A stretch of DNA of 64,000 nt from positions 2,186,335 to 2,250,334 of the forward strand of contig NZ_FWFR01000001.1 in assembly GCF_900172325.1 (NCBI RefSeq), in the 5' to 3' direction. Positions 12,351 to 14,905 of this stretch are shown piece after piece. The notes below the pieces were generated by a model. That model saw nothing but the letters and a program-made list of their open reading frames with translations. It ran no database searches and was not told where the DNA came from. The stretch comes from Oceanibacterium hippocampi. GTDB lineage: Bacteria; Pseudomonadota; Alphaproteobacteria; Sneathiellales; Sneathiellaceae. Numbering within the stretch: position 1 is the first letter of the stretch; each line of letters begins with the position of its first letter. Both the position numbers and the translations under genes were made by a program.

Positions 12351-12800
12351 ATGACAGGTCGTCACGGTTTTCGCGCTATCCTTGCATTCTCGACCGGCCT
12401 TGCCGCGCTCGCTGCGCTCTCCACCGTGGCCGCGGCGGCGGACGTCGCCGGCGTCTGGGCGACCGAGGAAGAGAAAAGTCACGTCGAGATCGAGCCTTGC
12501 GGCGACAAGATGTGCGGCGGGATCATCTGGCTGAAGGAGCCCAATGACGCCGCCGGCAATCCGAAGGTCGACAAGCGGAACGAGGACGAATCGATGCACA
12601 GCCGGCCGATCATCGGCCTGCGCCTGCTGGAAGGCTTCGCATCCGCCGGTGACGGGGCCTGGGAAGGCGGCAAGATCTACAATCCCGAGGACGGCAAGAC
12701 CTATTCCTCGGAGCTGAAGCTGGTCGACGAGGACACCCTGGAAGTGAAGGGCTGCGTCTTCGTGTTCTGCAAGACACAGACCTGGACCCGGGTCGAATAG
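12351..12800 (+). CDS. DUF2147 domain exported protein
   Basis: A 149-residue protein with a signal peptide (FRAILAFSTGLAALAALS, cleavage likely after VAAAA). The mature part starts ADVAGVWATEEEKSHVEIEP and shows the beta-sheet pattern of DUF2147, with Cys pairs in EPCGDKMCGG and KGCVFVFCKT that could form disulfides, and the ending QTWTRVE. The fold resembles a lipocalin-like barrel in the family, but no ligand is known. AGGGAGACG precedes the ATG. Confidence 0.88.
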   Translation: MTGRHGFRAILAFSTGLAALAALSTVAAAADVAGVWATEEEKSHVEIEPCGDKMCGGIIWLKEPNDAAGNPKVDKRNEDESMHSRPIIGLRLLEGFASAGDGAWEGGKIYNPEDGKTYSSELKLVDEDTLEVKGCVFVFCKTQTWTRVE

Positions 12801-12855
12801 GACGTTACCGCCGGGGCCGGCCCGAACGGGGGGCGGTCTTGAAGGCGCGCGCCGC

Positions 12856-12884
12856 TTGACCCGCCGAATCGCGGGCGGTATCGT
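12856..12884 (+). promoter_or_regulatory. sigma70-type promoter, leuA leader
   Basis: TTGACC at 12856-12861, exactly 17 bases, TATCGT at 12879-12884. Transcription would start near 12891, almost at the ATG of the short leader frame. Confidence 0.6.
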
Positions 12885-12891
12885 GCGCGCC

Positions 12892-12951
12892 ATGACCAGC
12901 CGCACCCCTGTCGCCCTGCGCGCGCTTCGACTTACTGGCCCGGCGTCCTGA
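12892..12951 (+). CDS. possible leader peptide of leuA (19 aa)
   Basis: Open frame for MTSRTPVALRALRLTGPAS. Three of six residues around the centre are Leu, two of them coded by CTT and separated by the rare Arg codon CGA, unlike the CTG/CTC and CGC codons of neighbouring genes. A hairpin begins three codons after the second CTT and covers the stop. Leader peptides with clustered Leu codons regulate leu operons by ribosome stalling. There is no Shine-Dalgarno; the ATG is within a few bases of the predicted transcript start, so it would be nearly leaderless. Speculative. Confidence 0.4.
   Translation: MTSRTPVALRALRLTGPAS
12923..12934 (+). repeat. 12-base direct repeat, copy 1
   Basis: CGCTTCGACTTA, lying inside the candidate leader frame where it encodes the CTT-CGA-CTT (Leu-Arg-Leu) codons. 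An identical copy is found at 13101-13112. Confidence 0.7.
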
Positions 12952-13100
12952 ACGACGTCGGGAAACGGTATTCGCGCGTCCATTGGCGACAGGATTTCTC
13001 GGTATGAACCGGTCACGAAACTTCCCACGGTATTATTCTCTCCCGGGTCCCGGCGGCCCGTCGCTCGTGCCGGCCCGTCCGTGCGCGCCGGAGTCCGTGT

Positions 13101-13112
13101 CGCTTCGACTTA
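13101..13112 (+). repeat. 12-base direct repeat, copy 2
   Basis: Identical to 12923-12934. Here too CTT-CGA-CTT can be read in an open frame that starts with GTG at 13067 (or 13097) and ends with TGA at 13130-13132, so this may be a second leader-like frame. Confidence 0.6.
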
Positions 13113-13132
13113 TTCGGGGTCGGCCCGCGTGA

Positions 13133-14905
<1,773 letters not shown>

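Follow-up and report, generated by a model that had tools for sequence, protein, structure and literature searches.

Two leucine-coded leader frames in series before leuA in Oceanibacterium hippocampi and a possible two-step translational relay

Amino-acid attenuation is usually taught with one leader peptide and one terminator. The enterobacterial Leu_leader (Rfam RF00512) relies on an intrinsic terminator, and ermC is controlled by translational attenuation through a leader peptide. Two leader peptides have been reported for ermB, also a case of translational attenuation (PMC8274638). In Actinobacteria the leuA leader is known as the LEU element, and pairing of its run of Leu codons with the leuA Shine-Dalgarno box was proposed in PMC1262725. 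A uORF upstream of leuA in Mycobacterium abscessus is named in a ribosome-profiling paper (PMC4974804). The uORFC-8-2 motif before cysS in Rhodobacterales has Cys codons and a likely intrinsic terminator at its end (PMC8632094). A tandem leuA leader did not appear among the papers listed by full-text literature searches; single alphaproteobacterial ones may be in Vitreschak 2004 and Lopatovskaya 2010, and no priority is claimed here.

We analysed the region before leuA in a stretch of 64,000 nucleotides from Oceanibacterium hippocampi (the window), for which a leucine attenuator with a repeated 12-base block had been proposed. With a probability of roughly 0.58, the 434 bases before leuA would be a leader RNA that reads charged Leu-tRNA by way of two consecutive leader peptides, acting as a two-step translational relay.

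Layout and conservation of the two leader units

The features of the leader are as follows.

12856-12884, plus strand: promoter-like site TTGACC-17-TATCGT, the only one found in 12780-13300 (shuffle mean 0.0)
12892-12951, plus strand: ORF1, leader peptide MTSRTPVALRALRLTGPAS, 19 codons from ATG 12892 to TGA 12949-12951, Leu codons in CTT CGA CTT; its ending LRLxxPA is recurrent across families
12907-12915, plus strand: CCTGTCGCC, ORF1 segment 5' of the Leu codons, which as the 5' strand of helix P0 can form nine Watson-Crick pairs with 12985-12993 (p=0.017 versus shuffles)
12923-12934, plus strand: first CGCTTCGACTTA block, regulatory codons of ORF1 (repeat search of 64 kb)
12939-12962, plus strand: hairpin P1, nine pairs, ORF1 stop codon within the loop (covariation, 27 sequences)
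12985-12993, plus strand: GGCGACAGG, Shine-Dalgarno region of ORF2 and 3' strand of helix P0 (pairing tests)
13004-13132, plus strand: ORF2, second leader frame, 42 codons, C-terminal end SVSLRLIRGRPA; open frame conserved in the sister genus
13094-13101, plus strand: TCCGTGTC, ORF2 segment 5' of its Leu codon, possible partner of the leuA Shine-Dalgarno region; eight Watson-Crick pairs (p=0.030 and p=0.013 in two tests)
13101-13112, plus strand: second CGCTTCGACTTA block, regulatory codons of ORF2 (repeat search of 64 kb)
13115-13150, plus strand: hairpin P4, ORF2 stop codon within the loop (covariation, 24 sequences; match to the unit-2 model R3 at 44.9 bits, the window being in the R3 training set)
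13219-13226, plus strand: GACACGGA, leuA Shine-Dalgarno region, possible partner of 13094-13101 (pairing tests)
13235-14905, plus strand: leuA, coding for a 556-aa type II (TIGR00970) 2-isopropylmalate synthase (824 bits to the NCBIfam model, cut-off 697)

The two copies of the block, 178 bases apart as first described, are the only ones in the 64 kb, with both strands searched and one mismatch allowed, and two copies arose in 0 of 100 shuffles. The initial annotation had also pointed to a good promoter, a 19-codon frame containing CTT-CGA-CTT, a nine-pair hairpin over its stop and a second block inside a short frame, and each of these was recovered at the positions listed. The P1 arms are CCCGGCGTC (12939-12947) and GACGTCGGG (12954-12962), with one G-U pair and the TGA in the loop. 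The codons said to be rare are indeed so: across eight neighbouring frames, CTT accounts for 25 of the 318 Leu codons and CGA for 7 of the 207 Arg codons. Among the nearest LeuA relatives with a name are Pelagibius, Reyranella, Kiloniellaceae and other Alphaproteobacteria. A 149-aa frame 5' of the leader (12351-12800) had no NCBIfam match.

Over 34 loci the best-scoring promoter site before ORF1, taken as the best over candidate starts, had a mean score of 8.68/12, compared with 5.44 at 500 random window positions. The -10 box of the window ends 7 bases before the ORF1 ATG (12856-12892), and it lies 6 or 7 bases 5' of the ATG in 22 of the 34 loci; ORF1 is therefore probably translated from a leaderless RNA. 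The predicted fold of 12893-13234 was not stabler than shuffles (z -0.91; 14 of 100 shuffles as stable), so that the structure of the leader is visible by comparison only.

A LeuA search in 60 relatives gave a match in 47, and the 500 bases upstream were read for 29 loci. In the sister genus (g2), a peptide M.N.NRLL.LRLIGPAL lies about 320 bases 5' of leuA, the position of ORF1 in the window, and a second CGACTT about 120 bases 5' of leuA. A covariance model of the ORF1 codons and hairpin P1 (R1), searched in 385 genomes of the class, gave 40 matches in 39 genomes; 35 of them adjoin type II leuA, and four of the five away from leuA adjoin ileS. A covariance model of the second element (R2) locates it 3' of ORF1 also in families outside its training set. 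Peptides of unit 1 typically end in LRLxxPA and those of unit 2, in many families, in LRLIxGR or LRLIxGRxA; some ORF1 frames have a Leu codon in place of CGA, e.g., MKRDRRLTQLLLINPIL.

Type II LeuA is present in 112 of the 385 class genomes, which yielded 96 upstream regions (three partial matches and 13 genomes covered by earlier loci set aside; four regions shorter than requested). R1 and a broader unit-2 model whose training included Rhizobiales (R3) were applied to the whole set at E up to 0.1, with two wrong-strand R1 matches discarded. Among these 96 untrained leuA leaders, none a training record and some close kin of one, 26 carry the two units in order, 30 carry unit 1 alone and 9 unit 2 alone, 7 give overlapping R1/R3 matches and 24 have neither. 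The duplicated control segment suggested for this locus is thus borne out in those 26 tandem leaders, in which each unit has Leu codons and a hairpin at its stop. The two units share a design without being copies of each other. In 13 earlier loci, R1 detects 11 (all training members) and R3 detects seven (six training members). Short single leaders of the form MLRLTTLRLIG were seen in L075, L077, L173 and L174, the first two being Reyranella records with CGACTTA. Both frames of the tandem leader are visible in a Pelagibius record (L072).

Both hairpins covary. For P1 in 27 sequences, the observed share of paired cells was reached by none of 500 shuffles, and the observed number of pairs with two-sided changes by 2 of 500; for P4, two-sided changes occur at 7 of 11 pairs in 24 sequences. 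When P3, P4 and a loop-to-3' pseudoknot were taken jointly in the 24 sequences, 36 cells showed two-sided changes, compared with 10.6 in shuffles (0/500). The pseudoknot is paired in 91.7% of cells across relatives and is poor in the window itself (p=0.425). Across the 24 aligned sequences the CGACTT of unit 2 does not vary, these loci having been selected by a CGACTT-like string, so that the invariance of the string, unlike the pairing, is partly by choice. Automatic locus-by-locus detection of the pseudoknot was dropped in favour of the alignment counts, since the unconstrained fold often misplaced P4 and many p values were high.

ORF2 is open in 20 of 20 sister-genus loci from an ATG 93, 102, 105 or 108 bases 5' of CGA. 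These starts were chosen in frame and the multiple of three is therefore by choice, but the absence of stops is not: frames 0, +1 and +2 contain 0, 25 and 38 stops in 638 codons. Third-position substitution bias is absent from the ORF2 codons before the motif (0.455, 0.411, 0.462), suggesting that the peptide there is under little constraint; ORF1 has such a bias (0.239, 0.172, 0.366). In 33 of 49 loci, including 11 of 13 in Rhizobiales, the distance from the start of the last CTT to the ORF2 stop is 21 or 24 bases, and in part of the sister genus the frame extends beyond P4. Programmed frameshifting at CUU-A before the pseudoknot was also considered and rejected, the open lengths of the +1 frame being very different across the 49 loci.

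Comparison across relatives shows ORF1 and ORF2 to be conserved frames, each with one or more Leu codons, mostly as CGA-CTT, followed directly by a covarying hairpin round the stop codon. ORF1 and ORF2 are the kind of short, Leu-coded leader frame expected of a ribosome-mediated amino-acid attenuator in the broad sense, and the Ile codons before ileS (below) agree with this. The initial annotation had made its reading depend on conservation of the short frame and hairpins in related leuA leaders, and this conservation was observed. We conclude from the comparison that the leader before leuA is real.

Complementarity of each unit with the next start site

The pairing of the ORF1 segment with the ORF2 start region was compared with that obtained after permuting partners among loci. 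For the 20 sister-genus loci, the own mean was -11.83 kcal/mol and the permuted mean -8.63, and 0 of 2000 permutations did as well, which was still so after dereplication to 14 loci. The 25 tandem loci outside g2, made up of five training loci (the window included) and 20 selected for both peptides being visible, gave -13.73 and -10.54, again with 0/2000; 16 of those 20 belong to the 26 untrained tandem leaders, the other 10 of which lie outside the pairing test. The corresponding counts for the ORF2 segment and the leuA start region were 13/2000 in the 25 loci and 161/2000 in the 20 g2 loci. Four mismatched control pairings showed nothing (1030 and 1270 of 2000 in g2, 1364 and 1754 in the 25 loci); the permutation test ignores ancestry, which the controls share. 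In the 25 loci outside g2, each unit matches the next start and not the other.

Pairing was also scored against shuffles, with p<0.05 for ORF1 and the ORF2 start in 11 of 44 loci (2.2 expected; sister genus included), for ORF2 and leuA in 3 of 31 (1.6 expected) and for ORF1 and leuA in 0 of 31. Pairing of ORF2 with its own start reached this level in 1 of 42 loci, the one being the window (p=0.027). The g2 pairs look compensatory (AACTGTC/GACAGTT, ATCGAC/GTCGAT, TTGAG/CTCAA). An earlier swap test, which counts against the relay, had given mean ranks of only 0.42 and 0.37, where chance is 0.5. RNAalifold, run on an alignment from ORF1 to the ORF2 start, did not predict P0, which we put down to an alignment without the strands in register. 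Comparison shows that the ORF1 segment just 5' of the Leu codons is kept complementary to the predicted ribosome-binding region of ORF2. A leader segment able to sequester the next ribosome-binding site, the mark of a translational attenuator, is found here as ORF1-ORF2 complementarity across relatives.

For leaders with a single unit, pairing with the leuA start gave 18/2000 permutations for the pre-Leu segment of 20 unit-1-only leaders (19 of the set of 30, and L242), 197/2000 in 12 Rhizobiales and 516/2000 in 25 Actinobacteria. Two unit-1-only leaders ending in LLRLTRP, L238 and L239, show good pairing between the pre-Leu segment and the leuA start (p=0.010 and 0.017). As a general switch, base-pairing between the Leu region of ORF2 and the leuA Shine-Dalgarno was rejected (mean z -0.03, 26 loci).

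Ribosomes were then simulated by blocking the bases under a ribosome at the Leu codons and comparing the openness of the downstream start, the untrained loci being the 20 of the pairing test. A ribosome on the ORF1 Leu codons opened the ORF2 start in 16 of these loci and closed it in two (Wilcoxon p=0.0001); in 25 training loci, it went up in 15 and down in eight (p=0.014). A ribosome on ORF2 did not open the ORF2 start (p=0.93 untrained, 0.18 training). The leuA start gave p=0.30 in the 20 untrained and p=0.03 in the 25 training loci with the ribosome on ORF2, and no effect with the ribosome on ORF1 (p=0.41 and 0.74). An earlier accessibility run with a shorter, 29-base footprint had shown no effect on leuA in 23 loci. 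In the window itself, the ORF2 start became less open with a ribosome on ORF1 (0.38 to 0.30), in the contrary direction, and the leuA start went slightly up (0.33 to 0.37). The pairing of the window's ORF2 start with its own later codons noted above may explain the contrary result.

Isoleucine codons before ileS

The second-best R1 match in the O. hippocampi genome is a frame ending in ALVALRIIGPALD directly 5' of ileS (TIGR00392, 829 bits), at G000:C16:1302326-1302385 (L062 1027-1086), in which the ORF1 scaffold carries Ile codons. Four other genomes have an R1 match with no LeuA nearby. In three of these, frames with RIIGPAL, RRISGPVL and IRIISPAL stand before IleS; in the fourth (L069), no IleS-type arrangement was found.

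The motif CGAATTATNNGCCCGG gave 39 matches in 37 of the 385 genomes, and 2 in the backward control. Of the 39 loci, 30 were read, and 20 (the own genome included) lie 42 to 168 bases 5' of ileS. The motif fixes the Ile codons by construction, and nothing in it forces ileS to be the next gene. A looser motif matched seven places in the own genome, of which the ileS one was examined. In the permutation test of pairing, 18 ileS leaders gave 116/2000, compared with 1816 for the control.

Citramalate synthase is an isoleucine gene. In one further locus (L294, near base 1501, minus strand), MNRHLTILAIRRIIRPVL with Ile codons precedes a 115-aa frame without a known family; 418 bases past the motif comes a citramalate synthase frame (445 bits against a cut-off of 450) that is interrupted by the locus end. 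The remaining nine loci comprise five matches inside longer frames and four leader-like ones. The latter (L300 and L320-L322, near base 1501) end in RIIGPAA, RIIGPVLH or RIIGPVLR, and the downstream frames tested (L300, L320, L322) had no NCBIfam match.

The swap before ileS is the best evidence that the leader codons would name the amino acid, and such Ile-coded leaders are a ready natural test of codon specificity.

Mechanism, alternatives and known systems

The response of the leader to leucine is what we infer from these data. Under leucine shortage, the leader would probably switch leuA on in two steps. When leucine is plentiful, the ribosome would clear ORF1 and helix P0 would form, hiding the ORF2 start; the ORF2 segment would likewise tend to mask the leuA start. 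When leucine is scarce, a ribosome stalled at the ORF1 CTT codons would cover the P0 strand and allow ORF2 to be translated, and the ORF2 ribosome, stalling at its own CTT, would free the leuA start. Such serial gating would make the response steeper than a single gate. The step from ORF2 to leuA is the weakest of the scheme, and Rho polarity on the untranslated leader could act there instead.

A wider reading, which we hold tentatively and at slightly less than even odds, is that Alphaproteobacteria share a swappable leader cassette (CGA, regulatory codons and GGC-CCG, with the stop codon in a hairpin), reading charged Leu-tRNA before leuA and charged Ile-tRNA before ileS, perhaps before a cimA operon too. 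Before leuA, many lineages would stack this cassette on a LEU-like unit, one stalled ribosome licensing the next in a terminator-free two-stage relay.

Rho-dependent attenuation as the main mechanism is, in our judgement, rather unlikely. The leader would be exposed to Rho when ORF2 is untranslated; a stalled or busy ribosome would protect it and let transcription reach leuA, the tandem frames tuning the protection. Gating of ORF2 by P0 would feed directly into such a mechanism, the untrained tandem leaders show no prominent intrinsic terminator, and positions 13015-13092 of the window are rich in C (C minus G at the 94.6th percentile of 78-base windows on the plus strand). However, the C-over-G excess over 34 tandem loci is small on average (0.034), and a rut site is unrecognisable by sequence alone.

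Binding of a protein or small molecule at P4 and the pseudoknot, with the peptides mattering little, appears improbable. It was argued for the Actinobacterial LEU element in PMC1262725, and the covarying pseudoknot and the unit-2 CGACTT, invariant in 24 sequences partly by choice, would suit it; the pseudoknot is, however, poor in the window, and both the Ile codon swap before ileS and the nearly fixed place of the stop point to translation and to the identity of the codons.

Classical attenuation of transcription at an intrinsic terminator, the enterobacterial leuABCD scheme, is quite improbable here. A Leu-coded leader peptide, a promoter and hairpins are present, and terminator-like sites were counted in 8 of the 25 training tandem loci (3.6 expected; this and all expectations below come from five shuffles per locus), with a T-rich run 3' of P1 in L023 and of P4 in L027. 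These sites are nevertheless scattered, three being upstream of ORF1; the untrained tandem leaders have such sites in 3 of 26 (5.0 expected), so a conserved intrinsic terminator is not seen in them, and none was detected in the window, in line with the lack of a T-tracted terminator remarked on at the outset. With terminator-like sites below the shuffled level, the output is more likely translational. Of the leucine attenuation initially proposed, the conserved leader with Leu codons stands, and classical termination finds no support in these counts. Other leader sets gave 6 of 30 for unit 1 only (5.0 expected), 3 of 16 for unit 2 (2.2), 5 of 22 for neither (2.4), 2 of 13 in Rhizobiales (1.8), 1 of 26 in Actinobacteria (1.2) and 3 of 8 in Beta (1.2).

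T-tract terminators, which would favour the classical scheme, were found in 8 of 11 Acidimicrobiia-like leuA leaders (1.2 expected) and in two Polaromonas loci. The eight (L090, L101, L103, L109, L133, L139, L141, L143), most with a short Leu-rich frame before the terminator, look like classical attenuators. In the Polaromonas loci (L107, L144), the leuA leader LALLLSANGRRR is followed by a strong terminator, and AACGGGC looks complementary to its first arm.

Local duplication can produce 12-base repeats, but a chance repeat or functionless duplicated fragment is hardly conceivable, position, frame and structure being conserved over many families, which refutes it as far as comparison can.

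If the two-step relay is correct, two leader peptides, each masking the start of the next frame, would form a serial logic gate made of RNA, with no need of a terminator, and leuA control would be explained in a wide set of Alphaproteobacteria. The enterobacterial Leu_leader resembles it in having Leu codons in a leader peptide before the leu operon; the Rfam models, Leu_leader included, gave no match to the present leader. The erm attenuators share the principle that a ribosome stalled in a leader affects the next gene, but their trigger is an antibiotic rather than an amino acid. The uORFC-8-2 motif is likewise an alphaproteobacterial leader frame for an aminoacyl-tRNA synthetase gene, but is terminator-ended with Cys codons (PMC8632094), whereas the tandem leuA leaders have Leu codons and no conserved terminator.

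The single leuA leaders of Rhizobiales are close to unit 2: they have the pattern CTTAnnnGCGGTyGCCGGG, the same stop spacing after the start of the last CTT (21 or 24 bases, 11 of 13) and, in 6 of the 12 scored, a loop-to-3' pseudoknot at p<0.05. They differ in having no separate unit 1; R1 at E up to 1 matches 1 of 13 loci (L123), atop unit 2. The LEU element (PMC1262725) also precedes leuA, of type II in the Actinobacterial loci examined, and has a Leu-codon leader frame; its pseudoknot has a counterpart in the relatives that is weak in the window. The Actinobacterial loci have no terminator excess (1 of 26, 1.2 expected). R3, applied to 56 other leuA loci (mostly Actinobacteria, with Beta- and Gammaproteobacteria and two Alphaproteobacteria), gave one match, which was not in a leader, so that the kinship to the LEU element is by layout only. 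The tandem leader provides an approach to the LEU element, the mechanism of which had not been settled in 2005. The LEU element is a single unit, whereas here a second unit precedes the LEU-like one.
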